This document shows, piece by piece, positions 28,705-45,107 of a DNA stretch of 64,000 nt. Under the pieces are notes generated by a model that did no database searches, had not been told where the DNA came from, and was given only the letters and a program-made list of their open reading frames with translations. Source of the DNA: Winogradskyella jejuensis (GTDB lineage: Bacteria; Bacteroidota; Bacteroidia; Flavobacteriales; Flavobacteriaceae); assembly GCF_900129745.1 (NCBI RefSeq), contig NZ_FQWS01000001.1:124001-188000 (forward strand), written 5' to 3'. The translations under genes and the position numbers were made by a program. Within the stretch, counting starts at the first letter, position 1; every line of letters starts with the position of its first letter.

Positions 28705-29604
28705 TTGGAGAATATCCTTACCATTAATAACCTCACTAAAAAGTTTGGTTATCTCACCGCAGTTAAAGATTTAAGTTTTACCATTCAAAAAGGTAATGTT
28801 TACGGCATTTTAGGACCAAACGGAAGTGGCAAATCCACAACCCTTGGTATAGTGCTTAATGTAGTTAACAAAACCAATGGCGATTTTCATTGGTTTGATG
28901 GCAACATCAACACCCATGAGGCTCTAAAAAAAGTAGGTGCTATTATTGAGCGACCAAACTTTTACCCATATATGACGGCAGAACAAAACTTAAAATTGGT
29001 CTGCAAAATCAAAGGTGTAAGTACAGATAAAATTAACGAGAAACTCGAAGTTGTTGGGCTTTTGGATAGAAAGAACAGTAAGTTTAGAACTTACTCTTTG
29101 GGTATGAAACAACGCTTAGCTATTGCCTCTGCATTACTTAACGACCCAGAGATTTTAATTCTAGACGAGCCAACAAATGGTTTGGACCCACAAGGAATTC
29201 ATCAGATACGTCAGATTATAAAAGATATTGCTGCCAATGGCACAACCATTTTGTTAGCCTCTCACCTATTAGACGAGGTAGAGAAAGTATGTTCTCATGT
29301 GGTTGTACTCAGAAAAGGCGAAAAATTATACTCTGGTCGTGTGGACGAAATGATTAATAGCCACGGCTTTTTTGAGTTAAAAACCGAGAAGCAATCCGAA
29401 TTAATTTCTATTCTAGAAGACCATAAGCTTTTTGATAAAATTAAAACCGAAGACGATTTGGTAACAGCATTTTTAAACGAGCCGATGTCGGCTTCAGAGT
29501 TTAACCAACTCATGTTCGATAAGGGTATAGTGCTTTCACATCTCGTAAAACGTAAAGAAAGTTTAGAAGAACAATTCCTTCAACTTACAGATAATCTTAA
29601 TTAA
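28705..29604 (+). CDS. ABC transporter ATP-binding protein
   Basis: 299 residues. Walker A is GILGPNGSGKSTT (about residues 36-48). The ABC signature is YSLGMKQRLAIASALL (LSGGQ variant YSLGM), Walker B is ILILDEPTNGLDP, and the switch is LLASHLLDEVE. The extra C-terminal region (about 215-299) is typical of the ATPase partner of ABC-2 membrane proteins. The start is TTG at 28705, because no ATG lies near the conserved ENILTINNLTKKFG N-terminus. The permease gene follows 69 nt later, separated by a dispersed palindromic repeat. The substrate is unknown. Confidence 0.9.
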   Translation: MENILTINNLTKKFGYLTAVKDLSFTIQKGNVYGILGPNGSGKSTTLGIVLNVVNKTNGDFHWFDGNINTHEALKKVGAIIERPNFYPYMTAEQNLKLVCKIKGVSTDKINEKLEVVGLLDRKNSKFRTYSLGMKQRLAIASALLNDPEILILDEPTNGLDPQGIHQIRQIIKDIAANGTTILLASHLLDEVEKVCSHVVVLRKGEKLYSGRVDEMINSHGFFELKTEKQSELISILEDHKLFDKIKTEDDLVTAFLNEPMSASEFNQLMFDKGIVLSHLVKRKESLEEQFLQLTDNLN

Positions 29605-29617
29605 ACACATATTTGTA

Positions 29618-29646
29618 ATACTGAACTTGTTTCAGTATCTCATCAT
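29618..29646 (-). repeat. Dispersed palindromic repeat, copy 1
   Basis: Perfect 8-bp arms (ATACTGAA/TTCAGTAT) around CTTGT. On the minus strand it reads GAGATACTGAAACAAGTTC, sharing the core TGAGAwmCyGAArCAAGTTC with copies at 45121 and 61381. It sits between the ABC ATPase and permease genes. Confidence 0.65.
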
Positions 29647-29673
29647 AAATATAACTACACAACCAATCAAAAA

Positions 29674-30501
29674 ATGATACGACTCATACAACTCGAATTA
29701 CAAAAACTTTGGCTCAACAGAACAAGCAAAATATTAATATTTGTTAGCTTCATCTTGCCATTTACGGTTTTAGTTTTATCCTCGATAAAGATTAACTTTT
29801 TTGGATTTTTCACCCTAGAATTGGGCGAATTAGGAATATTCAACTTTCCTATTATATGGCATATCACTACATTTTGTGCATCATACTTTAAATTTTTCTT
29901 TGCCATAGTCGTAGTAAGCATGATAGGTAATGAATACAGCAACAAAACACTAAAGCAAAACCTCATAGATGGACTAAGTAAAAAAGAGTTTATACTCTCT
30001 AAATTTTACACCATTGTATTCTTTTCTCTTGCTGCTACACTTCTTATTGGTTTGGCAACTTTCTGTATTGGCATGTATTACTCAAGTTATACCGAAGCAA
30101 CTATTGTATTTAGAGAAGTAGAATTTTTATTAGCCTATTTTGTAAAGCTTGTTGGGTTCTTTAGTTTGTGCTTATTCTTTGGAATGTTATTAAAACGTTC
30201 TGCTTTTGCCTTAGCATTCTTATTTATACTTTATATCGTTGAGTGGCTTGTGTTTTGGGGTGCTTACGAAATTTTTGATAGTGCGGACAAAGCTTTTCAA
30301 GTTAAAAACTTCATGCCTTTAGAGTCTATGTACAAACTCATTGATCAACCTTTCCAACGTGTAGTTATGACCAAATTCCCTGATAAAGCAGAATTAGGTT
30401 ATGATTATGCCGTACACTTTAGCGAAGTAGCTATTGTCATAGGTTGGACAGCACTTTTTATCTTTTTGTCTTACAGATTATTAAAAAAGAGGGATTTGTA
30501 A
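29674..30501 (+). CDS. ABC-2 type transporter permease
   Basis: 275 residues. About six transmembrane segments alternate with short loops (ILIFVSFILPFTVLVLSS, FKFFFAIVVVSMIGNEY, TIVFFSLAATLLIGLATFCIG, LLAYFVKLVGFFSLCLFFGMLL, FALAFLFILYIVEWLVFW, AIVIGWTALFIFLSYRLL). The motif NEYSNKTLKQNLIDGLSKKEFILSKF is typical of ABC-2 permeases. It pairs with the ATPase directly upstream and the complex sits in the cytoplasmic membrane. The cargo is unknown. The T9SS cargo gene begins only 27 nt downstream, with an inverted repeat in between. Confidence 0.88.
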   Translation: MIRLIQLELQKLWLNRTSKILIFVSFILPFTVLVLSSIKINFFGFFTLELGELGIFNFPIIWHITTFCASYFKFFFAIVVVSMIGNEYSNKTLKQNLIDGLSKKEFILSKFYTIVFFSLAATLLIGLATFCIGMYYSSYTEATIVFREVEFLLAYFVKLVGFFSLCLFFGMLLKRSAFALAFLFILYIVEWLVFWGAYEIFDSADKAFQVKNFMPLESMYKLIDQPFQRVVMTKFPDKAELGYDYAVHFSEVAIVIGWTALFIFLSYRLLKKRDL

Positions 30502-30502
30502 T

Positions 30503-30530
30503 ATATTTGATAGCTAGCGTTATCAAATAT
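30503..30530. promoter_or_regulatory. 10-bp inverted repeat covering a -7 box and the start codon of the first T9SS cargo gene
   Basis: ATATTTGATA (30503-30512) and TATCAAATAT (30521-30530) are exact reverse complements with an 8-nt spacer. The left arm includes most of the TATATTTG -7 match at 30502-30509. The right arm contains the first two bases of the ATG at 30529. Confidence 0.45.
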
Positions 30531-33500
30531 GAAAAAAATTCTTTTTTTAATTGCTTTTACAATTGTAAGTGTTTCAATATCAGCTCAAAACGAAGCGTCA
30601 AACTGGTATTTTGGTGATAATGCCGGAATTAGTTTTAACCCAGATGGAAGTATAACTCCAGTTACAGGACAATTAAGTACTGACGAAGGTTGTACAAGTA
30701 TTTCTGATGGGAGTGGCAACTTACTTTTTTACACTGATGGAATTCTGGTTTATGATAGAAATGGAGACTTAATGCTTAATGGCACTGGGCTTCATGGCAG
30801 CCCATCGAGTACACAATCTGCGATAATAATACCTAAACCATTAGATAACGACATATACTACATCTTTACTGTGGACACTAATTCCTTTGATAATACCGAC
30901 CTTGGTTTTAAGTATTCTGAAGTTGATATGACAAGAAATGGAGGTTTAGGAGAAGTTACTCAAAAAAACATAACATTACTTCAAGATAGCTCAGAAAAGA
31001 TTAGTGCCGTGTTAAAAGATTGTCAAACAGAAGCCATTTGGGTAGTAACTCTAGCCAATCAATTTGGTACATTGACAAATCCATTTGCTTTTGATACATT
31101 TCATGCTTTTGAGGTTACCGATACTGGTGTAAATACAACGGCAGTGACATCTCCAGCTGGTGTTACAGTCTCTAACCAAAGAGGCTATCTTAAATTTTCA
31201 CCAGATGGAGAAAAGTTAGCCTGCGCAAACACACAAGGTGGCTTATTTATATATGACTTTGATTTAACAACTGGTATGGTTGATAGCTCCCCAACTTCTC
31301 CACAACAACTAACAATAAATGCTAGTAATGGTGCTGTGATTCCTTACGGACTTGAGTTTTCTCCTAACAACCAATATTTATATGTTTCATCTTCTAATGA
31401 TTTTTTTAACCAGGCTAATCCCGCACAAAATGAAGTGCCAGCAAATCATTTTTCGTCTTTAGTTCAATTTGATTTAGCAGCTGCCGACATTCAATCGAGT
31501 CAAATTCTAATTAATCAAAGAAATGGCTATCGCTCTGCTTTACAGTCTGGTCCTGATGGTAAAATATATAGAAGTACTAGTGCCACTTATAATCAAGGAC
31601 TACCTTTTCTATCTGTAATAAATAATCCTAATGAGTTAGGTGCTGCTTGTGATTATGTTGATAATCAAATCCCGCTTTCAAACAATTCAAGGCAAGGACT
31701 TCCTCCTTTTATAGCTTCGTTCTTTTCTGAGACTATCGATATAATTAATGATCCAGAAATAACAACAACATTTTTACCACTTTGCGAAGGTGAGTCTTAT
31801 ACACTGACTGCAGATAATATTGCTGATGCGACTTACACTTGGAGTTTTGATGGTGTTGCACAACCTACTCCACCAATTCCTTATGAATTTGAAGTATTTC
31901 AAAATGGATTGTACGAAGTCCTTATAGAACTAAACACTGGAGATTGCGAAAGATTTGAAGGGCAAGCATTAGTAGAATATTCTCCATTTCCAGAAGCTTA
32001 TACGCCTCCAAAAATTGATGAATGTGATGATGCATTAAACGATGGTGTTTTTCGTTTCGATTTATCTCAACAAAACGCTGTTATTCTCGGAGGTCAAGAC
32101 CCTAGTGAATATACAGTCCACTATTACGCTAGCGAACAAGATGCAATTGACGACGAAAACGAACTTCCAACATTTTACGAAAACACAACCAACCCTGAAG
32201 AGATTTTCGTTCGTGTAGAAAATGTAAATAATGAAAATTGTTTTAGAACTATTGATGAAAATACAGGTTTAACAGTTAGTTTCTTTATAGAAGTCTTTGA
32301 TGACCCAACAGTTATTAGACCTGAAGACATTGACGAATGCGATTTAGATGGTGACACTACTGATGGCGTTATTACAATTGATTTAGCAGCTTTAATTCCT
32401 AGTGTTTTAGGTCCAGACCAAAACCCTATGCAATTTACAGTGACATACCATGACACGGATGCAGCAGCGCAAACTGGTGCTAATCCTTTACCAAATAGCT
32501 ATCAGAACGTACCGTTTAACGATGAAGTTTTTATAAGAATAGAAAATAATAACAATACAGACTGTTTTGACGTAGATAGCTTTTTAATAACAGTAAATCT
32601 TACTCCAGAAGTTAATGATATTGGTCTTTTTCAATGTGACGAAGATGGTACACCAGATGGAAGAACCTTATTTAATATCCTTGAAAAAGAAGAAGATATT
32701 ACTGGTGGAAACCCAGATTTTAGCGTCGAATATTTCTTAAATCAAACCGATGCTGATGCTGGAGGACCAACCATTGATGCTAGTAATTTTAACAATACTA
32801 GTAATCCTCAAATAGTTATTGCTAAAGTTACTGATACAACATCTGGTTGCTTTAGCTACAGTGAAATAACACTAGAAGCTAGCGCAACCTCTGCCAATGA
32901 TGCTTACCTCGGAGTTTGCGATACTGACGACATAGAAGATGGTTTTGTGGAATTTGATTTGTCTGAAGCTGATGCTCAAGTCTTAAATGGTTTACCTGCA
33001 GGATTAGATTTGGTGTATTATGGAACTTTAGATGATGCGCTTCTGGAGATTAATCCACTACCAAATAACTTTACAAATACTGAAGAAAGTGGACAAACGA
33101 TTTTTGTACGTGTAGAAAATGACAATAACTGTTATGGCATCAATGAAGTTGAACTAGAGGTATTAACGCTTCCTAATGTTGAAATAATGGATGAAGTCTT
33201 ATACTGCTTAAATAATTTTCCAGAGCCAATTGTAATTAATGGTGGTGTTATAAACGATATACCTAACAATTATTATTACGATTGGTCAACAGACGAGACT
33301 ACAATAGAAATTGAAGTTAATGAGCCAGGTACGTATACCGTAACTGTATCTAATGTTGCGGGTTGCTCCAAAGAACGTACTGTTATTGTTAGAGGTTCTG
33401 ACGTTGCGACTATTAATAATATAGAAGTCACCGATGCTTCGGAGAATAATACAGTTACCGTTTTAGTTAATAATCCAGACGAGTTTGAGTTTTCTTTAGA

Positions 33501-33882
33501 TAATCCTAATGGCCTATACCAAGACAGCAATGTTTTTGAAAATGTAAGACCAGGTATTTACACTGTTTATGTAAGAGATAAAGATGGCTGTGGTATTACA
33601 GAAGATATGGTTTCTGTAGTTGGTTTTCCAAAATTCTTTACACCAAATGGTGATAATCAGAACGACTTCTGGCAAGTAAAAGGGATTTCATCTCAATTTC
33701 AACCAGATACAATTATTTACATTTTTGACAGACACGGCAAGCTGCTTAGTGAAATTAATCCTCTAGGTTCTGGATGGGATGGCAACTACAATGGTAACCC
33801 TATGCCTAGTAGCGATTATTGGTTCTCTGTAACTTTACAAGATGGTAGACGCTTTTCGAGTCACTTTGCCTTAAAACGCTAA
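30529..33882 (+). CDS. T9SS type B cargo protein with beta-propeller-like N-terminus and 4 Cys/Asp modules
   Basis: 1117 residues with signal peptide MKKILFLIAFTIVSVSISAQ. Residues about 22-400 resemble a WD/PQQ-like propeller (NWYFGDNAGISFNPDGS, YLKFSPDGEKLACANTQGG, GLEFSPNNQYLYVSSS). An Ig-like stretch follows. Four repeats of roughly 100 residues begin with Cys 499, 604, 703 and 797 (CDxDxxDGxxxFDL). A second Ig-like domain near 890-955 precedes a linker and the C-terminal domain at about 1033-1117 (FPKFFTPNGDNQNDFW...GHFALKR type). That domain is the gliding-motility-associated type B signal for T9SS export and surface attachment. It is the first of four such genes. The protein is probably surface-anchored or released, but its ligand is unknown. 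Confidence 0.88.
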   Translation: MKKILFLIAFTIVSVSISAQNEASNWYFGDNAGISFNPDGSITPVTGQLSTDEGCTSISDGSGNLLFYTDGILVYDRNGDLMLNGTGLHGSPSSTQSAIIIPKPLDNDIYYIFTVDTNSFDNTDLGFKYSEVDMTRNGGLGEVTQKNITLLQDSSEKISAVLKDCQTEAIWVVTLANQFGTLTNPFAFDTFHAFEVTDTGVNTTAVTSPAGVTVSNQRGYLKFSPDGEKLACANTQGGLFIYDFDLTTGMVDSSPTSPQQLTINASNGAVIPYGLEFSPNNQYLYVSSSNDFFNQANPAQNEVPANHFSSLVQFDLAAADIQSSQILINQRNGYRSALQSGPDGKIYRSTSATYNQGLPFLSVINNPNELGAACDYVDNQIPLSNNSRQGLPPFIASFFSETIDIINDPEITTTFLPLCEGESYTLTADNIADATYTWSFDGVAQPTPPIPYEFEVFQNGLYEVLIELNTGDCERFEGQALVEYSPFPEAYTPPKIDECDDALNDGVFRFDLSQQNAVILGGQDPSEYTVHYYASEQDAIDDENELPTFYENTTNPEEIFVRVENVNNENCFRTIDENTGLTVSFFIEVFDDPTVIRPEDIDECDLDGDTTDGVITIDLAALIPSVLGPDQNPMQFTVTYHDTDAAAQTGANPLPNSYQNVPFNDEVFIRIENNNNTDCFDVDSFLITVNLTPEVNDIGLFQCDEDGTPDGRTLFNILEKEEDITGGNPDFSVEYFLNQTDADAGGPTIDASNFNNTSNPQIVIAKVTDTTSGCFSYSEITLEASATSANDAYLGVCDTDDIEDGFVEFDLSEADAQVLNGLPAGLDLVYYGTLDDALLEINPLPNNFTNTEESGQTIFVRVENDNNCYGINEVELEVLTLPNVEIMDEVLYCLNNFPEPIVINGGVINDIPNNYYYDWSTDETTIEIEVNEPGTYTVTVSNVAGCSKERTVIVRGSDVATINNIEVTDASENNTVTVLVNNPDEFEFSLDNPNGLYQDSNVFENVRPGIYTVYVRDKDGCGITEDMVSVVGFPKFFTPNGDNQNDFWQVKGISSQFQPDTIIYIFDRHGKLLSEINPLGSGWDGNYNGNPMPSSDYWFSVTLQDGRRFSSHFALKR

Positions 33883-33918
33883 ATAAAACGTACTTTTAGT
33901 TAGTAAAAAGTTTGTCTT

Positions 33919-35697
33919 TTGAAACTAAAACTCTTTGGCTTATTCTTCTTTATTTTTAGCTGTTACAATGGCTATGCTCAGGATATTGCACTATACCAAC
34001 AGTTTAATGGTCGCTATGACTATACTGCAATAGGTAATACATTAAACACTTCTGAAAATGGAAGTTTGGCTGTGTGCGACATACTCACAAGTTCTTCTGC
34101 CAATTTAGACTTAGACACAAATCAAACTATAATTGCCGCCTACTTGTACTGGGCTGGCTCAGGTGATGGAGATTTTGAGGTTTCTCTCAATAACAATATA
34201 GTAACAGCAGAACGGACATTTAGTGATAGCTTAGATGATACGCGTGTATTTTTTGCTGCTTTTGCAGATGTTACAACTATTGTTTTGGAAGAAGGAAATA
34301 CATTATACACACTTTCAGAATTTGATATTACAGACGTCATTGCACCTTACTGTCCTACAGGCACAAATTTTGGTGGCTGGGCACTAACAGTTATTTATGA
34401 AGACGATGCATTACCATTAAATCAACTTAATGTTTATGACGGTTTACAGAGTGTTCCAGAGTCGCTTACAATCACTTTAGACAATCTTAATGTTTTAGAT
34501 AACGATAATGCTAAAATTGGCTTTATTGCATGGGAAGGCGACCGCGCTTTAGCAGTGAATGAACAATTGACTATAAATGGAAACCTTATTGGTAATCCGC
34601 CTCTAAACCCGAGCAATAATGCTTTTAATGGTACAAATAGCTTTACTGGCGCTACAGATTTATTCAATATGGATATTGATGTATATAACATACAAGACAA
34701 TATTGCCGTCGGAGATACGTCTGCTACCATAAGTCTTACATCGGGTCAAGATTTTGTAATGATAAACAATATTATTACTGTACTCAATAGTCAATTACCC
34801 GATGCTACTATAGTTATTGATAGTATTAATTTGGAATGTGATAGTAGAACGATAGAGGTAGAATATACTGTAAACAACACCAACAGCACTGGTGTATTAG
34901 AAAACAATACACCGATAGCATTTTATGCCAACACAACTCTAATAGGGCAATCGCAAACCAATAGCGATATTCCTATAGGCGGTTCGGAAGTTTCTACGAT
35001 AACACTGGAGATTCCTGAGACGATTCCAGATGAATTTATATTAACTGTAATTGTTGATGACGATGGTAGCGGAAATGGAATTATAACTGAAACTAATGAA
35101 AATAATAACTCAGATTTTGAAGATGTAGCACTTCTTATCATTCCTGAAATATTGATTCTTCCTAATCTAATTGAATGTAACTTAGGATTTGAAAAAGCCT
35201 TTTTCAATTTACTCGAAGCTACCGAGAATAATATTCAATTTGAAAACAGTAGCTTTCAGTTCTACACAAGTTTAGAAGATTTAAAAGAAGGTATAAATAG
35301 TATTCCTTTTCCAGAAGATTTTGAAAATGAATCGAATCCACAAACTATTTATATCCGCTTAGAAAAAGATATATGCTACGAAATTTTTCAGTTTAATATA
35401 GAAACTGAAAATTGTCCTCCTGAAATCCCTGAAGGGTTTTCACCTAACGATGACAATAAAAATGATTGGTTTAACATTCAAGGCTTGTACAATATTTTTG
35501 AGCAACACGAATTAAAAATCTACAACCGTCTTGGCACACTTATCTTTAAAGGTGATAATCAAAAAAGATGGGATGGCTACAGTAATAATGGACTTAACAA
35601 CGGACAACTTGTTCCTGTAGGCACTTACTATTATGTTCTTCATCTTAACGACCCAAACTACAAATCTGTAAATGGCTGGGTCTATGTTAATTATTAA
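33919..35697 (+). CDS. T9SS type B cargo protein with CARDB-like domain
   Basis: 592 residues. The start is TTG at 33919, giving signal peptide MKLKLFGLFFFIFSCYNGYAQ. The N-terminal region (about 25-290) is a beta-rich domain with IAAYLYWAGSGDGDFEVSLN, seen in DUF3344-like secreted proteins. A CARDB-like domain (about 295-400) has EVEYTVNNTNSTG and ITETNENNNSDF. One degenerate copy of the Cys module (ECNLGFEKAFFNLLEA), without the DxDxDG loop, comes next. The C-terminal type B domain (about 503-592) has GFSPNDDNKNDWF, LKIYNRLGTLIF and PVGTYYYVLHL. It exits the outer membrane through T9SS. It may be co-transcribed with the gene 36 nt upstream. Confidence 0.85.
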   Translation: MKLKLFGLFFFIFSCYNGYAQDIALYQQFNGRYDYTAIGNTLNTSENGSLAVCDILTSSSANLDLDTNQTIIAAYLYWAGSGDGDFEVSLNNNIVTAERTFSDSLDDTRVFFAAFADVTTIVLEEGNTLYTLSEFDITDVIAPYCPTGTNFGGWALTVIYEDDALPLNQLNVYDGLQSVPESLTITLDNLNVLDNDNAKIGFIAWEGDRALAVNEQLTINGNLIGNPPLNPSNNAFNGTNSFTGATDLFNMDIDVYNIQDNIAVGDTSATISLTSGQDFVMINNIITVLNSQLPDATIVIDSINLECDSRTIEVEYTVNNTNSTGVLENNTPIAFYANTTLIGQSQTNSDIPIGGSEVSTITLEIPETIPDEFILTVIVDDDGSGNGIITETNENNNSDFEDVALLIIPEILILPNLIECNLGFEKAFFNLLEATENNIQFENSSFQFYTSLEDLKEGINSIPFPEDFENESNPQTIYIRLEKDICYEIFQFNIETENCPPEIPEGFSPNDDNKNDWFNIQGLYNIFEQHELKIYNRLGTLIFKGDNQKRWDGYSNNGLNNGQLVPVGTYYYVLHLNDPNYKSVNGWVYVNY

Positions 35698-35722
35698 TTT
35701 TGTTGCATTTTAACGATTTTTT

Positions 35723-35752
35723 TTGCATTTAATCTATAAATGCTTACATTTG
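35723..35752 (+). promoter_or_regulatory. Full Bacteroidota promoter of the 1611-residue T9SS cargo gene
   Basis: TTG at 35723-35725, 19-nt spacer, TACATTTG at 35745-35752. Elements and spacing both match the consensus exactly. The leader to ATG 35807 is about 50 nt. This indicates that the third cargo gene has its own transcription start. Confidence 0.75.
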
Positions 35753-35806
35753 AGCATGTAATAAGCTTTGAACCTGTTATATACAAAAGCGCATTAATCT
35801 TTTTTT

Positions 35807-38800
35807 ATGTTTGAAAGTGTAAAATACATACGCTTAATAATCATTTTTTTAACTGCACAGATAAGTCTGTCGCAGCAGATTAGTGTTGATAATTCTTTAA
35901 CTGCTGAAGCATTAGTTCAGAATACTTTAGATGCAGAATGCTTAGAAATTTCAAATATAAGCTCACCTGTAAATGGTAGTTCTGTTGGTTTAGGAAGCTT
36001 CGGATACTTTGAACGTGGTTCATCAAATTTTCCATTCGAAAGTGGTATCATATTATCAACTGGTAACGCCACATCAGCCGGAAACGTAGTAAACAATGAA
36101 GTTTTAAACGAAGGTGAAACAGCATGGGGAACAGATATCGACTTAGAGAATACTATTGGAGCGAGTAATACACTAAATGCTACGTCTATAGAGTTTGAAT
36201 TTGTTTCAATATCTGATGTTTTACAATTTAATTACATCTTAGCCTCAGAAGAATACTTTGGTAATTTTCCTTGTAATTATTCCGATGGATTTGCACTACT
36301 CATAAGAGAAGCAGGTACTTCTAATCCCTATACTAACATTGCACTAATTCCCGGAACGACCACTCCTGTAAATACTACAACAATACACGATGAAATTCAA
36401 GGATTTTGCCCTGCTGTAAACAGTCAATTTTTCGAAGGCTACAACTTAGGTGATACCAATTATAATGGACGTACCACAGTATTAACAGCAACAGCTAATA
36501 TTACGCCTAATGTACCTTATCAAATTAAGTTAGTTATTGCTGATCAAACAGACAGAAACTATGACTCTGCTGTGTTTATAGAAGCTAATAGCTTTACCCC
36601 AACTGTAGATTTAGGAAATGATTTTTCTACATGCGCAAGCAGTACAACCTTGGATGCAGATATAAACAACCCAAATGCCGAATATGATTGGTATCTAGAC
36701 GGAGGCTTAATTTCAGATGCAGACCAAGCAACATTAGAAATTTCTAATAGTGGTACATACCAAGTTGTTATTAATATTCCCCTTGGTAATGGATTTTGTA
36801 CAATTGATGACGAGATAATTGTAGATATCAGTAATACACAAAGCACTACTCCAATGCAGAATTATGAGCTTTGTGACGACCCAAGTAATGACGGTGAAGA
36901 AGTTTTTAATCTAAACACTAAAGATGCTGAAGCTATAAATTCTGTGGCTCCAGGGAACTATGTTATATCTTACCATACATCGTTACCAAATGCTCAAGAC
37001 AACATAAATCCCATTACGGGAAATTATACCAATGCCGTTAGTCCTCAACTTATTTATGTAAGGATAGAAGATATAGATAACGGTTGTTTGGCCATAAATC
37101 AGTTTCAACTTATTGTAAACCCAAGACCAGAAATCATAGACCCTCCATTAATGGAAGTTTGTGACGACCAAGTTATTGATGGTTTTACAACTATAGATTT
37201 AAACGAAAATAACGACACTATAACCAATGGTCAAACCAACTTAAACGTTACCTACCATTATACACAAACTGATGCAGATTTAGGTATAAACCCAATACCT
37301 ATGCCTTACGTAAACGACACACCTATGGATATGGTTTTTGTTAGTGTTAGTAACTCAACTACTGGTTGCAATACAACAACAACTCTTGATATCTCAGTTT
37401 TAGCGCCACCAGATATTAATAATGCTCAGAATTATTACATTGATGCCTGCGACTCTGACTATGATGGTTTCGCAAATTTTGATTTAACTGAAGTAGAAGC
37501 CGAAATTTTAAATGGCTTAACAAATGTTACTGTAACATACCATTTAACTCAGGAAGATGCGCTCACAGGAGCAAACCCGATACCTGACCCAACAAATTTT
37601 ATTAATACAATACAAACCGAACAAATAATTTACATACGTGTCGTAGATAATATAACTGGATGCCCATCAATAGCTCCAATAGAAATACATCCTAATCTAT
37701 TATTATCTGGTCCTGATTTTACGGGTCAAACTATTTGTGACATTAATAACGATGGAACAGAAGCCTTTGACCTCTTAGCGCTGACAGGAATTATACTCGG
37801 AGATATACCAGATGTTACGATTACCTTTTACGAAACTGAATTAGATAGAGATAATAGCACTAATGCAATTGATACAAGCGTAGATTATTTTCCAGCTTCG
37901 GTTCCGCAGACATTATACCTCACCTTAACGAGTCCAACTTGTACAGAAACGGAAACTATTATTCTAGATTTATATCCTACGCCAGAGTTTCCAGATTTAC
38001 CACAACAACAAATCTGCGACTCTGACCAAGATGGTCTCACCACAGTAAATTTAACTGACTATAACGATGCACTTACACAAGGCGAAGCAGGTTTTATAAT
38101 CACCTATTTTGAGACACAACAAGATGCAGAAGACGACACGAATCCTATAAACACCATTTATCAAAACACTGTAAATCCTTTTACGATATATGCAAGAATA
38201 ACTTCTGGAACAACTTCTTGTGTAGACACTTCTAGTTTCGAAATTTTAGTTAGCCCTGCCCCAGAAACTACAAGTGCTAATCCAATAATAATTTGTGATG
38301 ATGACCAAGATAGCTTTTCTATTGTTAATCTAGAAGATGTTATCCCAGAAATAACAGCATCAACAGTTGGATTGAATATTACGTTTCATAGCTCGTCGGC
38401 GGATGCAAATTCTGGAAATAATGCTATAGTAAATCCAGAAAATTATAACGCCGAAACAAGCACCATATTTGCAAGAATAGAAAATGATACAACAACCTGC
38501 TATACAGTAGAAAACATATCGATAATAGTCAATACACTACCTGTATTTTCTAATATTTCAGACTTTACGTTCTGTGAGAATAATACAGACGATGTCGGAG
38601 ACTTTTTACTAAGCACCAAAGACGCTGAAATATTAAATGGACAAACAGGAAAAGAAGTTCTTTACTTTTTAACTGCCGATGATGCCATAAGTGGTAATAA
38701 TCCAATAGATAAGAATAGTGATTTTCAGAATACAGAAAATCCGCAAACTATACATGTCCGCGTACAGAATATTACAGACCCAAGTTGTTACGGTACAGAC

Positions 38801-40642
38801 GCCTTTGTACTCAACGTAGGGACTAATCCAAATTTTAACGAACCACCTGATATTTTCCCCTGTGATGACGCGTCTAATGACACTGTTGTTACTATTAATT
38901 TAGATGAAATATCAGCTGATATTTCGGAAGGTATTTCAGAGGACTTAACCATAAGCTATTATCCAAGTTTTGAAGACTTTCAAGCTGGCACTAATCTCAT
39001 TACGGGAAGTACTTACACCACTATAAGCAATCCACAAGAGCTATTTATAGAAATTTCTAATGGTAGCCTATGTACATCTACAGCATCTTTTACCGTTAGT
39101 GTTATTCCTGTTCCTGAAGTTAATGAAATAGCACCTTTTGAGGATTGTGATATTGATTATGACGAAAGTATTTCTTGGAACCTAACAGATGCCGAGATTA
39201 ATATTTTAGATATAAGACAAGATAATATTGTAACCTCTTATTTTTTATCAGAAGGCGATGCAGATAATGATACTAATCCAATACCTGACCCTGAAAACTT
39301 TGTAAACACTTCAAATCCGCAAACAGTTTACGTAAAGGTTATAAATACGGTTTTTGATTGCCCATTAGTTTTACCAATAGAACTTAATGTAATATCGCCT
39401 CCAACATTCAACGATTTTGGCTCTACGGTGATTTGTGATAACGATGATAACAGTTATGACCTTTCCGAAATAAACACTTTATTAGGTAATTTACCGAGTC
39501 CAGTAGTTATAACTTACCACTCCGATGAACAAAATGCTATCGATGACACAAACCCGTTAGATGTCAATTATACCTACCAAACAAATAGCGATATTATCTA
39601 CGCTCGAATTACAAATAGTACAACAGGTTGTTTTTATGTATATCCGTTTATGCTCGAAGTAAATGATAGACCCATTGCCAATACTCCTGAAGATTTAGAA
39701 GAATGTGATGACGATACTGACCAACGTTTGATTTTTGATTTAGAAACGCAAACAGCAGCTGTATTAGGAAGTCAAGATGACACATTTCTAGAAGTAACGT
39801 ATCATAATTCTCAAGATAATGCTATTGCTAACGTAAGTCCTATACAAAGTCCTTATAATGCAATAGATGGCCAAATAATATACGTTAGAGTTACTAATAC
39901 TGAAACAGAATGTTATAGCATTACGCAGTTTGGTGTTATTGTAAATCCTTTACCAATAGTTGAGTTTGAAGACCAAACTATTTGTCCAGAAAATTTTCCA
40001 TTAAGAGTAGATGCCGATACTGGTTTTGAAGATGATGAATATTTATGGTCTACAGGTGAAATGACTTCAGAAATTGAAATCACAGTTACAGGAACCTATA
40101 GTGTTACTGTTACTACACCAAGTGGATGTACAGCAACAAGTGAATTTAATGTTATCATTTCTGAACCAGCAAATATTGAAGTTGTCGAAACCGTTGACTT
40201 TTCTGACCCAAATAATATTACCATTACCGTCTCAGGAATTGGAGATTATCTTTATCAATTAGATGATGGCGAACCTCAAGATTCTGGTTTTTTCGAAAAT
40301 GTAAATCTTGGTTACCATACACTTACTATAATAGACCAAAACGGATGTTCTTCTGTCACAAGAGAAGTTTTGGTAATAGATGCTCCAAAATTTATGACTC
40401 CAAATAACGATGGTGATTTCGATACATGGCATATTATTGGTGTAGAAACACTACCAGGAACTGTCGTGAATATTTTTGATAGATACGGAAAACTACTAAA
40501 ACAGTTGACGCATACTTCCCCAGGCTGGAATGGAACTTACAATGGAAATCTTATGCCTGCCACAGATTACTGGTGGTCAGCTGATGTAAAACGTGGAGAT
40601 ATTCAGTTTACCGCAACAGGACATTTTGCGCTTAGGAGATAA
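35807..40642 (+). CDS. Giant T9SS type B cargo protein: choice-of-anchor L domain plus 11 Cys/Asp modules
   Basis: 1611 residues with a signal peptide (IRLIIIFLTAQISLSQ). Residues about 25-265 form a choice-of-anchor L type domain (FPFESGIILSTG, QFNYILASEEYFGNFP, VPYQIKLVIADQTDRNYDSAVFIEA). An Ig-like segment follows (270-345). Eleven modules begin with Cys 356, 452, 548, 644, 737, 830, 923, 1019, 1114, 1210 and 1300, a period of 90-96 residues. Typical starts are CDSDYDGFANFDL and CDSDQDGLTTVNL, and typical ends are NPQTVYVKVINTxxxC. Two more Ig/SprB-like segments (1390-1520) precede the T9SS type B domain (1527-1611). The repeats suggest a long extended stalk at the cell surface, probably an adhesin-like role; this is inference. 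Confidence 0.88.
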   Translation: MFESVKYIRLIIIFLTAQISLSQQISVDNSLTAEALVQNTLDAECLEISNISSPVNGSSVGLGSFGYFERGSSNFPFESGIILSTGNATSAGNVVNNEVLNEGETAWGTDIDLENTIGASNTLNATSIEFEFVSISDVLQFNYILASEEYFGNFPCNYSDGFALLIREAGTSNPYTNIALIPGTTTPVNTTTIHDEIQGFCPAVNSQFFEGYNLGDTNYNGRTTVLTATANITPNVPYQIKLVIADQTDRNYDSAVFIEANSFTPTVDLGNDFSTCASSTTLDADINNPNAEYDWYLDGGLISDADQATLEISNSGTYQVVINIPLGNGFCTIDDEIIVDISNTQSTTPMQNYELCDDPSNDGEEVFNLNTKDAEAINSVAPGNYVISYHTSLPNAQDNINPITGNYTNAVSPQLIYVRIEDIDNGCLAINQFQLIVNPRPEIIDPPLMEVCDDQVIDGFTTIDLNENNDTITNGQTNLNVTYHYTQTDADLGINPIPMPYVNDTPMDMVFVSVSNSTTGCNTTTTLDISVLAPPDINNAQNYYIDACDSDYDGFANFDLTEVEAEILNGLTNVTVTYHLTQEDALTGANPIPDPTNFINTIQTEQIIYIRVVDNITGCPSIAPIEIHPNLLLSGPDFTGQTICDINNDGTEAFDLLALTGIILGDIPDVTITFYETELDRDNSTNAIDTSVDYFPASVPQTLYLTLTSPTCTETETIILDLYPTPEFPDLPQQQICDSDQDGLTTVNLTDYNDALTQGEAGFIITYFETQQDAEDDTNPINTIYQNTVNPFTIYARITSGTTSCVDTSSFEILVSPAPETTSANPIIICDDDQDSFSIVNLEDVIPEITASTVGLNITFHSSSADANSGNNAIVNPENYNAETSTIFARIENDTTTCYTVENISIIVNTLPVFSNISDFTFCENNTDDVGDFLLSTKDAEILNGQTGKEVLYFLTADDAISGNNPIDKNSDFQNTENPQTIHVRVQNITDPSCYGTDAFVLNVGTNPNFNEPPDIFPCDDASNDTVVTINLDEISADISEGISEDLTISYYPSFEDFQAGTNLITGSTYTTISNPQELFIEISNGSLCTSTASFTVSVIPVPEVNEIAPFEDCDIDYDESISWNLTDAEINILDIRQDNIVTSYFLSEGDADNDTNPIPDPENFVNTSNPQTVYVKVINTVFDCPLVLPIELNVISPPTFNDFGSTVICDNDDNSYDLSEINTLLGNLPSPVVITYHSDEQNAIDDTNPLDVNYTYQTNSDIIYARITNSTTGCFYVYPFMLEVNDRPIANTPEDLEECDDDTDQRLIFDLETQTAAVLGSQDDTFLEVTYHNSQDNAIANVSPIQSPYNAIDGQIIYVRVTNTETECYSITQFGVIVNPLPIVEFEDQTICPENFPLRVDADTGFEDDEYLWSTGEMTSEIEITVTGTYSVTVTTPSGCTATSEFNVIISEPANIEVVETVDFSDPNNITITVSGIGDYLYQLDDGEPQDSGFFENVNLGYHTLTIIDQNGCSSVTREVLVIDAPKFMTPNNDGDFDTWHIIGVETLPGTVVNIFDRYGKLLKQLTHTSPGWNGTYNGNLMPATDYWWSADVKRGDIQFTATGHFALRR

Positions 40643-40687
40643 TACAAAATTTAACATCTTATAAAAAATCAAAACCTGAGCTATAAG

Positions 40688-40695
40688 TATATTTG
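40688..40695 (+). promoter_or_regulatory. -7 promoter box of the fourth T9SS cargo gene
   Basis: TATATTTG, an exact TAnnTTTG match 21 nt before ATG 40717. It overlaps the TTG at 40693, which would be the alternative start, and so favours 40717. Confidence 0.55.
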
Positions 40696-40716
40696 TATCC
40701 GATTTTTACACTATCA

Positions 40717-43065
40717 ATGAGATACATTTTTGTTATATTCACTCTACTTTTTTGTTCTGTAATTTTTGCTCAAAACATTACTGTAGACAGCCAATCTTTT
40801 AATCCTCAACAGCTTATTGAAGATATCTTAATTGATAGTGATTGTATTGAAAATATAGTTGTAACAAACGCCCAAAGTGGAAATTTTAGTGGTATAGAAT
40901 TCAGCTATGGTTTTTTTGATGGTACAGGAACCTCTTTTCCATTCGAAAGCGGTATTGTAATGAGCACTGGACGATTAAGTAATGTACCTGGACCAAATAA
41001 CTCATTGAGTGATGATGACGCACCAGGTTGGGATGGTGATAGTGATTTGGAAGAAATTTTAGATGAAAATGACACATTTAATGCTACAATATTAGAATTT
41101 AATTTTACAGCTATTACCAATCAAATAAGCTTCAGATACCTATTTGCTTCTGAAGAATATCAAGAAGGAAATAGTAATACATGCTTGTTTTCGGACTTGT
41201 TTGGTTTTTTAATTAAGCCGTCTGATAATTCAGAACCCTTTGAAAATATAGCAGTAGTTCCAGGTACAAATACACCTGTAAAAGTAACCACTGTAACTCC
41301 TGGTATTTCTGGCAGCTGTCCACCTCAAAACGAAGCTTATTTTGGAAGTTTTAATAATACCGTTTCACCTATTAACTTCAATGGGCAAACTACAGTATTA
41401 ACTGCAACTGCAGACATTGTTTCTGGAGTCGAATACACAATTAAACTAGTTATTGCTGACGAAACCAATTTTAGATTTGACTCAGCTGTCTTTCTTGAAG
41501 CGGGGAGTTTTCAAGCCTCTAGAGATTTAGGGCAAAACAGATTATTAGCAACTAACAATCCATTATGTGAAGGTGAAACTCTAACTCTAGACGGCACAGT
41601 AGCTGGAAACAATGGTTATGATTGGTTTAGAGATGGTGTTCTCGTACAATCTGACCCAGTAGGTTGTACTAATTGCGGCACCTACGAAGTAACTCAAGCC
41701 GGGACATATACCTTAGAAGTAAATTTAGATGGTACCTGTATTTCCAATGGAGAAATTGCCATAGAATACAGTCCAAATCCTGTTGGCATAGATATTATTC
41801 AAACTGAATGCGATGCTGACCAAGATGGGCTCACCTTTTATGATTTACTAAAACTCGCTGCAGATATTCGTGATAACGACAACGATTTAACCGTGAGTAA
41901 TTTCTTTTTATCAGAAATGGATGCTATCAATAATATTAACCCAATAGATACACCTACAAATTTCGAAAATACCATCCCAAATCAAATCGTTTATGCCAGA
42001 GTAGAAAATCCATTTGGGTGTTTTGATGTTGCAGAGTTAGAGCTTCAAATTTCAAATAACACACTTAATATTCCTGTTATTGAAGCTTGTGATTTCGGAG
42101 AAATTGACGGATTAACAACATTTGATCTTGACGAAGTCATTACTGCTATTGATAGTCAAATACCAACGGGTGCTACTATTAATTTTTTCGAAACGGAAAA
42201 CGATGCGTTTACAGGAAACAATTTATTAAATATAGACTTTGATAATAGTGTACCCGACTTTCAAACCATATTTGTAAAAGTTGAAAGTAATAACGAATGT
42301 TTTGCCATTTCTGAGGTGGACTTACAAGTAAAATTTACACCAGAAGTTTCAGAAGATGAAACTGTAATTTATTGTACAAACACCTTTCCTGAAACCATAA
42401 GACTTTTTGGTGGAGTCCTTAATGATTTACCTAACAACTATTATTACGAATGGCAATTAAACGGAACACCTTTAACCACGACCACTTCTTTTATAGATGT
42501 TAATGAAATAGGCACTTACACTGTGATTATTACAGACCCTAACGGCTGCAGTAACACTAGAGATATTATAGTAGTACCATCAGAAATTGCTCAGATAGAT
42601 GCTGTTGATGTAATTGGCTCAGATACTATAAATACTATTACAATTGACGCTTCTGGCGTTGGTGATTATGAATATGCACTTGACGACGAAAATGGTCCTT
42701 ATCAAGATGAAAATGTATTCAACAACATACTACCGGGATTTCACACAGTTTTTGTTCGTGATAAGAATGGTTGTGGAATAGATTCAGAAATCTTTTCAGT
42801 ACTTGGTTTTCCTAAATTCTTCACCCCAAATGGCGATGGACAAAACGATTTTTGGCAGCTAGATGGTATTAATTTTCAGCTTTATCCAGACCTAGAAATA
42901 ACAATCTACGACCGTTTCGGAAAGTTAATGACGAGACAAAATGCAAATAGCTCTGGCTGGGATGGAAACTATAACGGTAGCTTAATGCCAAATTCTGACT
43001 ATTGGTTTACTGCTGAGTTTGGAGATGGCAGAACTTTTACGGGACATTTTGCCTTAAAACGTTAA
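40717..43065 (+). CDS. T9SS type B cargo protein: choice-of-anchor L domain plus 2 Cys/Asp modules
   Basis: 782 residues with signal peptide MRYIFVIFTLLFCSVIFAQ. It is a shorter homologue of the 1611-residue neighbour. The choice-of-anchor L domain (about 20-265) has SFPFESGIVMSTG, SFRYLFASEEYQEG and IKLVIADETNFRFDSAVFLEA. After an Ig-like part, two modules start at Cys 365 (CDADQDGLTFYDL) and Cys 459 (CDFGEIDGLTTFDL). Then come an Ig-like domain, a SprB-like segment and the type B domain (FPKFFTPNGDGQNDFW...GHFALKR, about 699-782). Its C-terminal third closely matches that of the 1117-residue protein, so the locus appears to have grown by duplication and module loss or gain. Confidence 0.88.
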   Translation: MRYIFVIFTLLFCSVIFAQNITVDSQSFNPQQLIEDILIDSDCIENIVVTNAQSGNFSGIEFSYGFFDGTGTSFPFESGIVMSTGRLSNVPGPNNSLSDDDAPGWDGDSDLEEILDENDTFNATILEFNFTAITNQISFRYLFASEEYQEGNSNTCLFSDLFGFLIKPSDNSEPFENIAVVPGTNTPVKVTTVTPGISGSCPPQNEAYFGSFNNTVSPINFNGQTTVLTATADIVSGVEYTIKLVIADETNFRFDSAVFLEAGSFQASRDLGQNRLLATNNPLCEGETLTLDGTVAGNNGYDWFRDGVLVQSDPVGCTNCGTYEVTQAGTYTLEVNLDGTCISNGEIAIEYSPNPVGIDIIQTECDADQDGLTFYDLLKLAADIRDNDNDLTVSNFFLSEMDAINNINPIDTPTNFENTIPNQIVYARVENPFGCFDVAELELQISNNTLNIPVIEACDFGEIDGLTTFDLDEVITAIDSQIPTGATINFFETENDAFTGNNLLNIDFDNSVPDFQTIFVKVESNNECFAISEVDLQVKFTPEVSEDETVIYCTNTFPETIRLFGGVLNDLPNNYYYEWQLNGTPLTTTTSFIDVNEIGTYTVIITDPNGCSNTRDIIVVPSEIAQIDAVDVIGSDTINTITIDASGVGDYEYALDDENGPYQDENVFNNILPGFHTVFVRDKNGCGIDSEIFSVLGFPKFFTPNGDGQNDFWQLDGINFQLYPDLEITIYDRFGKLMTRQNANSSGWDGNYNGSLMPNSDYWFTAEFGDGRTFTGHFALKR

Positions 43066-43100: not shown

Positions 43101-45107
43101 ATGCGTTTTAAGATAGAATCCGAATTTAAACCTACTGGTGACCAACCACAAGCTATAAAACAATTAGCTGAGGGTATTAACAGCAATGAAAGATATCAAA
43201 CGCTCCTCGGCGTAACAGGTTCTGGTAAGACCTTCACCGTTGCTAATGTTATTCAAGAAGTACAGCGACCAACTTTGGTTCTGGCACATAATAAAACCTT
43301 GGCAGCACAATTATACTCCGAATTTAAGCAATTCTTTCCAGACAATGCGGTAGAATACTTTGTGTCTTATTACGATTACTACCAACCTGAGGCCTATATT
43401 CCTGTTTCTGGGGTTTATATAGAAAAGGATTTGTCTATAAATGAAGAAATTGAAAAGATGCGACTCAGTACCACATCTTCCCTACTCTCGGGTCGTAGAG
43501 ATGTTTTGGTAGTGGCTTCTGTTTCTTGTTTGTATGGTATTGGAAACCCTGTTGAATTCCAAAAAAACGTTATAACTTTAGAACGCGACCAAGTGATTTC
43601 AAGGACTAAGTTACTGCACATGCTCGTCCAAAGTTTGTATTCGCGTACCGAAGCTGATTTTAAAAACGGAAACTTCAGAATTAAAGGTGATACTGTAGAC
43701 GTATTCCCAGGATATTCTGATAATGCCTTCAGAATTCATTTTTTTGGAGACGAAATTGAAGAAATTGAAGCTTTTAATCCGCATACACGAGAAATTATTG
43801 AGCGCTATGATAGATTGAACATTTATCCTGCAAATATGTTTGTAACGTCTCCTGATGTGCTGAATAACGCCATAAAAGACATTCAAGATGATTTGGTAAA
43901 ACAACACGATTACTTCAAAGACATTGGTAAACATCTTGAAGCCAAACGCCTAAAAGAGCGTACGGAATTTGATTTGGAAATGATCCGAGAATTAGGCTAT
44001 TGCTCTGGTATTGAAAATTATTCGCGCTATCTAGACGGTCGCGCACCAGGCACACGACCATTCTGCTTATTAGACTATTTTCCTGAGGATTATTTAATGG
44101 TCGTTGACGAAAGCCACGTGACTATATCTCAAGTGCATGCCATGTATGGTGGCGATAGAAGCCGAAAAGAAAACTTGGTCGAATACGGTTTCCGCTTGCC
44201 AGCTGCAATGGATAACAGACCATTGAAGTTTGAAGAATTTGAAGCACTACAAAATCAAGTGATTTACGTTTCTGCCACACCAGCAGATTACGAAATGCAA
44301 AAGACCGATGGTGTTTATGTGGAGCAAGTCATAAGACCAACAGGATTATTAGACCCTATAATAGAAGTACGTCCAAGCTTAAATCAAATAGATGATTTAA
44401 TAGAAGAAATACAAACTCGTGTAGAAAAAGATGAACGCACATTGGTGACAACTTTAACCAAACGTATGGCGGAAGAATTGGTAAAGTATTTAACCCGAAT
44501 CGCTATACGTTGTAGATATATCCATAGTGATGTAGATACTTTGGAACGTGTAGAAATTATGCAAGATTTACGTAAAGGTATTTTTGATGTTTTAGTTGGC
44601 GTTAATTTGCTTCGTGAAGGCTTAGATTTACCTGAGGTTTCTTTAGTTGCTATCCTAGATGCCGATAAAGAAGGGTTTCTTCGTAGCAATCGCTCATTAA
44701 CACAAACGGTTGGTAGAGCAGCAAGAAATCTTAATGGTAAGGCTATTATGTATGCAGATAAGATTACCAATAGCATGCAAAAGACCATTGATGAAACCAA
44801 TTACCGTCGCGAAAAACAAATCGCTTACAATACCGAAAATAATATCACTCCTAAAGCATTAAATAAGAGTTTAGATAGTGCACTTGCAAAAAATTCTGTA
44901 AGTACTTATAAAACTGAATTAGATGCTAAACTAGCAGCTGAGCCTGAAAGTAAATATCTGACCAAAGGTGAGCTCGAAAAGAAAATACGAGATACACGAA
45001 AGCAGATGGAGCAAGCAGCAAAAGCATTAGATTTTATGGAAGCGGCTCGCTTTAGAGACGAGATTACGGCATATCAAGAGCGTTTGGAGAAATTGAAGGT
45101 AAAATAA
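43101..45107 (+). CDS. uvrB: UvrABC excinuclease subunit B
   Basis: 668 residues, normal length. UvrB receives damaged DNA from UvrA, verifies the lesion with its helicase-like core and recruits UvrC for incision. Visible are Walker A GVTGSGKTF (37-45) and the beta-hairpin region YYDYYQPEAYIP. Helicase motif DESHV and the C-terminal helicase motifs (LREGLDLPEVSLVAILDADKEGFLRS, QTVGRAARN) follow. The C-terminal UVR coiled coil that contacts UvrC is also present. All appear intact. The next gene downstream is convergent, so uvrB is transcribed alone, from a promoter that overlaps the end of the preceding cargo gene. Confidence 0.97.
   Translation: MRFKIESEFKPTGDQPQAIKQLAEGINSNERYQTLLGVTGSGKTFTVANVIQEVQRPTLVLAHNKTLAAQLYSEFKQFFPDNAVEYFVSYYDYYQPEAYIPVSGVYIEKDLSINEEIEKMRLSTTSSLLSGRRDVLVVASVSCLYGIGNPVEFQKNVITLERDQVISRTKLLHMLVQSLYSRTEADFKNGNFRIKGDTVDVFPGYSDNAFRIHFFGDEIEEIEAFNPHTREIIERYDRLNIYPANMFVTSPDVLNNAIKDIQDDLVKQHDYFKDIGKHLEAKRLKERTEFDLEMIRELGYCSGIENYSRYLDGRAPGTRPFCLLDYFPEDYLMVVDESHVTISQVHAMYGGDRSRKENLVEYGFRLPAAMDNRPLKFEEFEALQNQVIYVSATPADYEMQKTDGVYVEQVIRPTGLLDPIIEVRPSLNQIDDLIEEIQTRVEKDERTLVTTLTKRMAEELVKYLTRIAIRCRYIHSDVDTLERVEIMQDLRKGIFDVLVGVNLLREGLDLPEVSLVAILDADKEGFLRSNRSLTQTVGRAARNLNGKAIMYADKITNSMQKTIDETNYRREKQIAYNTENNITPKALNKSLDSALAKNSVSTYKTELDAKLAAEPESKYLTKGELEKKIRDTRKQMEQAAKALDFMEAARFRDEITAYQERLEKLKVK

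Follow-up and report, generated by a model that had tools for sequence, protein, structure and literature searches.

Among the described systems closest to the locus reported here are the Periscope Proteins (SasG, Rib and Sgo_0707), which have highly identical repeats, the number of which changes between close strains (PMC8201768, PMC9704523). A second comparison is offered by the type B cargo of the type IX secretion system (T9SS), which needs PorP/SprF-like shuttles, although orphan cargo can share one (PMC12618676, PMC9143113), as in Flavobacterium johnsoniae, where three orphan cargo proteins with related C-terminal domains (CTDs) use one lone shuttle (PMC12618676). A fibrillar-adhesin survey counts CHU_C-anchored Bacteroidetes proteins and takes stalk domains from Pfam (PMC8286594), and a paper on nebulin describes repeats that grow in multi-domain blocks, read there as a possible structural or functional constraint (PMC1553488). 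Here we describe four adjacent genes, A to D, for predicted T9SS cargo within 64,000 nucleotides of Winogradskyella jejuensis (contig NZ_FQWS01000001.1, positions 124,001 to 188,000; this whole stretch is called the window), with emphasis on the 1611-residue protein C, in which a Cys/Asp module of about 95 residues occurs eleven times between an N-terminal head and a C-terminal sorting domain.

Like the Periscope Proteins, C is a single chain in which tandem domains would form a stalk for a presumed functional domain at the N-terminus, and we infer a similar surface anchorage; unlike theirs, its repeats are diverged (28% identity on average, best pair 47%), and their number is near-constant between species and changes mainly by threes. 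Like SprB and other F. johnsoniae type B cargo (PMC9143113, PMC12618676), C has a TIGR04131 CTD, SprB being also large and repetitive, and like some of that cargo C is an orphan with respect to a shuttle; it differs from SprB and the F. johnsoniae cargo in that its locus has no adjoining PorP/SprF gene. In growing by a fixed multi-domain block C resembles nebulin (PMC1553488), whereas nebulin belongs to eukaryotic muscle and has seven domains in its block, against three in that of the bacterial cargo C. A search of an open-access library found no report of this array.

Number and order of modules in protein C

The first-pass annotation of this DNA had counted 4, 1, 11 and 2 copies of the module in the four proteins. 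These numbers were recovered exactly by held-out profiles, for which each protein was removed in turn and the profile made from the remaining modules (28–69 bits for the 18 modules, with a best of 4.0–6.4 bits in shuffled controls, 200 shuffles per protein), and the eleven starting-cysteine positions that it listed for protein C were all exact. Gene C and its parts are laid out as follows.

35807..40642, +: gene C, 1611 residues; choice-of-anchor L head, immunoglobulin (Ig)-like spacer, 11 modules, spacer, type B CTD
35915..36595, +: choice-of-anchor L head domain of C (NF038133), for which a jelly-roll-like sandwich is predicted
36833..37126, +: C module 1 (held-out profile, alignment)
37121..37408, +: C module 2 (held-out profile, alignment)
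37409..37702, +: C module 3, structure modelled; same-position identity 52.6% in 92 orthologues, the highest of the eleven
37697..37981, +: C module 4 (held-out profile, alignment)
37976..38260, +: C module 5 (held-out profile, alignment)
38255..38539, +: C module 6 (held-out profile, alignment)
38534..38827, +: C module 7, 52.5% same-position identity
38822..39112, +: C module 8 (held-out profile, alignment)
39107..39400, +: C module 9, opens the three-module growth block
39395..39670, +: C module 10, middle of the growth block, with a short Asp loop
39665..39952, +: C module 11, closes the growth block
40376..40639, +: C type B sorting domain

A homologue of C (E 1e-150 or better) was found in 99 of 299 family genomes, the window's own included, representing 82 of 236 genera, and among the matches listed the homologues other than its own were 36–60% identical to it. 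Eleven modules were present in 93 of 101 complete C-like open reading frames (ORFs) of the family-genome loci, where C-like means a best BLASTP match to C aligned over at least 800 residues (four open-ended ORFs excluded). The same number was found in 71 of 78 complete C-like ORFs from named genomes, here aligned over at least 600 residues with 26 open-ended ORFs excluded, a set drawn from the best 80 of 473 loci in which close relatives weigh heavily. In the de-duplicated union, made up of complete homologues from different species and genera, 151 of 167 had eleven. The 11-module ORFs of the 101-ORF set were 37–56% identical to the window protein, those of the named set up to 74%, with the closest named C proteins coming from Winogradskyella. 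As for the union's 16 other counts, the single '10' (1633 residues) is probably an eleven with one module under threshold, the '8' stands for positions 1–9 with one module missed, and the '6' belongs to a different protein with 30% identity and another head. One C protein came from a metagenome-assembled genome titled 'Algicola sp.' (L242; taxonomy Pseudoalteromonadaceae) and was nested among Psychroserpens, probably because of a naming clash.

The first 20 loci had been selected by ORF length near 1600 residues and are a biased sample; a further 40, chosen by uvrB score and thus blind to length, gave eleven modules in 17 of 19 complete C-like ORFs. With the head only as query, and thus blind to the modules, 95 of the 107 matches of at least 312 bits (own included) were in ORFs of 1600–1670 residues. 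The cut was chosen after the score gap was seen and excludes rows at 266.8 bits (1613 residues) and 262.9 bits (1470 residues), the match list itself being truncated at its low-scoring end. The 12 matches outside that length range were three at contig ends, two with a stop, two from a genus with nine modules and five with 14 or 17 modules.

The order of the modules was kept as well. When those of 92 orthologues were compared with the window protein, 917 of 1012 had their best match at the same position, with 92 expected by chance; the weakest position was module 8, with 48 of 92 best matches in place. One genome has three tandem C paralogues, all with 11 modules, whose identities to the window protein are 47, 45 and 37%. 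This near-constant number together with the positional orthology implies that the C array is old, and we therefore reject for C the history of gained and lost modules that the first-pass annotation had proposed for the locus as a whole. The same proposal would make C an ordinary variable-length periscope adhesin, and it does combine a head, an anchor and tandem domains of a surface type, in a genome where other module-bearing proteins carry other numbers; with 151 of 167 homologues at eleven and repeats far from near-identical, we disfavour that view and rate it as very improbable.

The reading that we prefer, giving it an even chance, is that C is a T9SS-exported surface stalk, the set length and module order of which are kept by selection so that the head stands at a defined height. 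A different account would make each module its own working site, binding a ligand or partner, with length a by-product. The positions are indeed individually and unevenly conserved, same-position identity being about 52.5% for modules 3 and 7 and 36.6–37.9% for modules 5, 8 and 10, but the block 9-10-11 can be multiplied, modules 10 and 11 are gone in one genus, and the same module family is the variable-number part of other proteins, so that we regard this account as improbable.

Growth of the array and a variable control

Eleven complete C arrays were longer than eleven modules, seven having 14, three 17 and one 20. With position-specific profiles all of them read as positions 1–8 and then two, three or four copies of 9-10-11, and no single-module gain was seen among them; module gain in C is real but rare. 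In the four longer arrays that were measured the best internal pair was 57–86% identical versus the 47% maximum of 93 eleven-module arrays, and this high internal identity points to later duplications. In a tree of the head and modules 1–8, the longer arrays did not form one clade (approximately unbiased test, p-AU 6.6e-6 with 6 rows and 1.7e-8 with 12 rows, the 12 including the open-ended ORF L164), and the well-supported branches forced 7 changes. Taking also the tree of the blocks (below) into account, we read the longer C arrays as having at least three origins, with four or five likely.

We tentatively consider that C may act as a surface ruler, with module number and order selected for a set reach and quantised at 11, 14, 17 and 20, where three modules would make up one structural turn or unit, so that only whole units could enter at the base and leave the position and orientation of the head unchanged. 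A hidden three-module period inside the 11-module array was considered and rejected, as no offset stood out (27.8–30.0% identity). In an uncultured Psychroserpens three C paralogues lie in a row (L220, 249–16940), one having 20 modules, the next 14 and the third, which runs off the locus, at least 8; by their sequences these may be stalks of graded length side by side.

As a control we used a 1545-residue protein of the same genome, which shares both the module and the head family with C and has a CTD 51% identical to that of C. Its head was matched in 41 of 299 genomes, own included; 18 of the other 46 rows were fetched, which with the own protein made 19, and 11 of these were cut by contig ends and excluded. 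The 8 complete ORFs with this head had 7, 16, 11, 13, 13, 13, 12 and 3 modules. The module family tolerates change in number, and C rarely shows such change. The eleven control homologues that stop at contig ends (L189, L191-L193, L195, L200-L203, L205 and L206) look as if the arrays had broken the assemblies. A second control head, from a 1460-residue protein, was of no use, being present in 5 of 299 genomes. Anchor L domains also occurred in frames of about 1310–1340 residues in several genera (examples are G088:C47, G168:C1:2855620, G043:C8, G264:C32, G240:C4 and G050:C5), in rows that match only the anchor L part of the head queries; these may represent a second near-constant cargo type, which would speak against the contrast drawn with the control.

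The control also bears on the main rival to selection on length, namely mutational inertia, by which the modules are too diverged to recombine and the number eleven is frozen with no set length, the 9-10-11 blocks then being rare accidents that recur through local sequence or through tails spread by recombination. The low internal identity of the 93 eleven-module arrays agrees with this, and so does the link between repeat-number variation and high repeat identity made in a periscope paper (PMC8201768). The variable arrays are moreover somewhat more alike internally, complete control arrays having a mean internal identity of 33–40% and a best pair of 41–58%, and a long array in another genome (G033) a best pair of 84%. 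However, the control arrays too are well diverged and yet range from 3 to 16 modules, which speaks against inertia but falls short of excluding it. It is also difficult for this rival that modules 8 and 11, the exchange of which would duplicate 9-10-11, do not exceed other pairs in likeness (29.5%, range 24–33%), and that complete longer arrays show no single-module gain. A special likeness of modules 8 and 11, considered as a cause of the block duplication, was thus not found. We hold mutational inertia to be possible, though doubtful.

The module, its distribution and the surrounding locus

The 18 modules average 27% pairwise identity, and the sole invariant columns of their alignment are two Cys residues, 65–75 residues apart (65–71 after each of the eleven starting cysteines in C). 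The motif described in the first-pass annotation is present but looser than claimed, the consensus being CDxDxDGxxxFDL ... YxxxxxDAxxGxNPI ... QxIYxRVxN ... C, and the Asp loop is degenerate in C modules 7 and 10. A disulphide across each module had also been put forward; the pair is conserved, both Cys being kept in 96.7–100% of the 92 C orthologues at each of the 11 positions and never both absent, and is compatible with a putative disulphide. The first Cys is followed by an Asp-rich loop that may bind a metal, probably calcium.

No family was matched by more than one module when the 18 modules were compared with Pfam, or 62 modules from five genomes with Pfam and NCBIfam; Pfam and NCBIfam scans of the four full proteins gave no family over cut-off that covered the module, and a PDB sequence search with module profiles gave no chain at E up to 10. 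An AlphaFold2 model of C module 3, based on an alignment of the window's own modules, had a predicted local distance difference test (pLDDT) score of 93.6. Foldseek found nothing in PDB for this model at E 1e-3 or better (best 5.7e-3), and a VIA structure comparison placed domains of GhpA, a grappling hook protein from Aureispira (PDB 9flp and related entries), first, a weak match with Z 6.7 at 2.7 Å over 78 of 98 residues and 14% identity. The match is about level with that to a vertebrate Ig domain (Sidekick, Z 6.5), and the resemblance to GhpA is one of predicted structure, the module profiles having no sequence match to any PDB chain at E up to 10. The spacer of D scores just under the cut-off of Ig_7 (PF19081, CHU_C-associated; 25.0 versus 27.3 bits), and size and likely fold are similar, but only 1 of the 18 modules matches that family, at E 0.02. 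The fold is probably an Ig/cadherin-like sandwich, to judge from the model. The first-pass annotation had allowed that an existing family or an ordinary Ig or CUB domain might account for the module; the predicted fold is Ig-like, yet no sequence family covers it, and it is a widespread Flavobacteriaceae domain with no Pfam or NCBIfam name.

The head of C scored 152.1 bits and that of D 157.6 bits for choice-of-anchor L (NF038133, cut-off 27), and the same scan gave no match in A or B. The model of the C head (pLDDT 80.4, alignment of 58 sequences) resembles beta-sandwiches and jelly rolls, with the best match to VesC, a protease (residues 380-510, Z 8.9), two matches to GH16 glycosidases (Z 8.1–8.4) and others to MAM, gingipain adhesin and carbohydrate-binding domains (Z about 6.5–7.6). 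These weak structural matches would fit a lectin-like tip. A PDB sequence search with the head profile found nothing, and in a viral fold library 5 entries matched it at E 1e-3 or better, all with a TM-score of at most 0.39 by query length.

That the module is common to the four neighbours, as had been noted, is true, but it is not special to these genes, as the genome has 41 copies, 18 of them here. Among the 23 outside the locus, 21 fall in five other ORFs bearing a type B CTD. The remaining two lie in a 768-residue protein that begins like a lipoprotein and lacks a type B CTD (L180 1288-3594, G000:C9), so that the module is not exclusively a part of T9SS cargo. It was found in 87 of 100 Flavobacteriaceae genomes (one per genus), which again makes its sharing among four genes unremarkable, and with the genome copies rules out a locus-specific module. 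In a phylum sample it occurred in 32 of 247 genomes, 25 from the same family, 3 from another family of the order and 4 from elsewhere in the class, the last with a single module match each. The G033 array mentioned above is part of a 5164-residue frame (G033:C47, L188 1-12846) with at least 30 modules, in which a unit of about 272 residues consists of two modules and one other domain resembling Ig/PKD spacers. At another locus a 1924-residue type B cargo (L093 2029-7803), in which 6 modules can be recognised and a choice-of-anchor L head is absent, adjoins a normal 11-module C.

Genes A, B and D lie adjacent to C on the same strand, between an ATP-binding cassette (ABC) transporter pair and a uvrB-like gene, the latter named from its sequence. 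The remaining features are given here.

28705..30501, +: ATPase of an ABC transporter and an ABC-2 permease; conserved left border of the cargo island, outside the stalk
30529..33882, +: gene A, 1117 residues; head, 4 modules, Ig-like spacer, type B CTD
31984..32280, +: A module 1 (held-out profile, alignment)
32299..32604, +: A module 2 (held-out profile, alignment)
32596..32889, +: A module 3 (held-out profile, alignment)
32878..33171, +: A module 4 (held-out profile, alignment)
33622..33879, +: A type B sorting domain (TIGR04131)
33919..35697, +: gene B, 592 residues, TTG start; head with no family match, 1 module, divergent type B CTD
35137..35415, +: B single module (held-out profile, alignment)
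35425..35682, +: B type B sorting domain, divergent
40693..43065, +: gene D, 790 residues; choice-of-anchor L head, Ig_7-like spacer, 2 modules, spacer, type B CTD
40873..41511, +: choice-of-anchor L head domain of D
41770..42060, +: D module 1 (held-out profile, alignment)
42049..42339, +: D module 2 (held-out profile, alignment)
42805..43062, +: D type B sorting domain
43101..45107, +: uvrB-like gene, conserved right edge of the cargo island, outside the stalk

The head of A has weak matches to WD40 (propeller-type) repeats, all below cut-off, and the start of D as listed is TTG, with an ATG 8 codons downstream. In relatives, D-type ORFs had 2 modules in 17 of 17 and 33 of 33 cases, A-type ORFs 4 modules in 14 of 15 and 30 of 31, and B-type ORFs 1 module in 14 of 18 and 61 of 66 (the others 0 or 2), counts that include only ORFs aligned over at least 85%, a filter biased toward equal architecture; outside it, shorter or longer A-like ORFs with 1–9 modules occur at the locus. 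Between the ABC permease and uvrB lies a cargo island, which varies mainly in which cargo genes are present, from no cargo-like ORF in e.g. L104, L105, L110 and L114 to six in L062.

The N-termini of the four proteins are hydrophobic by eye in the translations, and the T9SS type B domains reported earlier are found in all four over the NCBIfam cut-off (TIGR04131 scores of 116.7, 44.7, 103.7 and 111.9 bits for A to D; cut-off 35). In a comparison of 14 of the genome's 16 type B CTDs, those of A, C and D formed one class with 44–63% identity, that of B standing apart at 20–26% to them. The genome has 7 PorP/SprF genes (PF11751), none of which matched near the locus; six adjoin other type B CTDs, and the seventh, G000:C4:1192024-1192830, stands alone and is a candidate shared shuttle for the window's orphan cargo, G000:C4:711633-712523 being another candidate for A, C and D. 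By analogy, the sharing of a lone shuttle in F. johnsoniae would be the obvious model for this cargo, and since orphan cargo is known there, a locus free of porP/sprF does not exclude type B membership.

No tRNA genes were found in the window. The pattern TTTG-N19-TACATTTG, which we take to be the Bacteroidota promoter consensus, matched at 35722-35752 in the gap upstream of gene C, a site considered as a possible promoter of C alone; across the window there were 10 matches versus 6.1 expected, not clearly above chance, and upstream of the named C-like ORFs it occurred in 7 of 78 regions versus 0.85 in shuffles.

Protein C as a putative surface stalk

In the stalk reading, the type B CTD would carry C through the T9SS and then tether it to the outer membrane, where a PorP/SprF barrel is the presumed point of attachment, and the N-terminal choice-of-anchor L head would be the working end, making C a fibrillar adhesin. 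The eleven Ig-like modules would form a rod-like stalk, each probably with one disulphide and a stiffening Asp-rich, probably calcium-binding, loop. An Ig-like module is about 4 nm long, and if each adds that length the head would stand at about 40 nm. Reach could be raised by inserting whole 9-10-11 blocks beside the anchor, leaving the head and modules 1–8 undisturbed, and A, B and D would be shorter siblings that differ in head or stalk length.

Several observations weigh against selection on a set height. No C was found at E 1e-150 in 200 of 299 family genomes, from which it follows that C is dispensable, and a near-constant number alone does not show selection on height. The control is an imperfect comparison, its orthology being less sure (heads 41–54% identical to that of the 1545-residue protein versus 47–69% for C heads) and its modules somewhat more alike than those of C. 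One genus, represented by two species, has 9 modules (positions 1–9), which is not a three-step, and the open-ended ORF L064, with C as its best match, has 14 modules in a different pattern, although it was excluded as incomplete, its head lying outside the fetched piece. A tree of the blocks forces only 4 changes, the extra blocks being common to some relatives whose heads do not group; tails were probably exchanged between relatives, spreading part of the block growth, which would also suit mutational inertia. In one tree the last 9-10-11 block of a 17-module array (L119 11661-18161) falls beside the tail of a paralogue of 11 modules at the same locus, a sign of such exchange. The structural matches, finally, are weak, with Z below 8 for the module and 8–9 at best for the head over 130–147 residues, and Foldseek gave no PDB match for the head at E 1e-3 or better.

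In the periscope papers the length of bacterial stalks is a variable (PMC8201768, PMC9704523). Here one module family builds nearly fixed and variable stalks in the same genomes, so that fixed and variable reach become directly comparable. The pattern of growth by three predicts that 14, 17 or 20 modules would be tolerated and 10 or 12 would not. With this module unnamed in Pfam and NCBIfam, the large surface proteins of the Flavobacteriaceae are less fully described than they could be.

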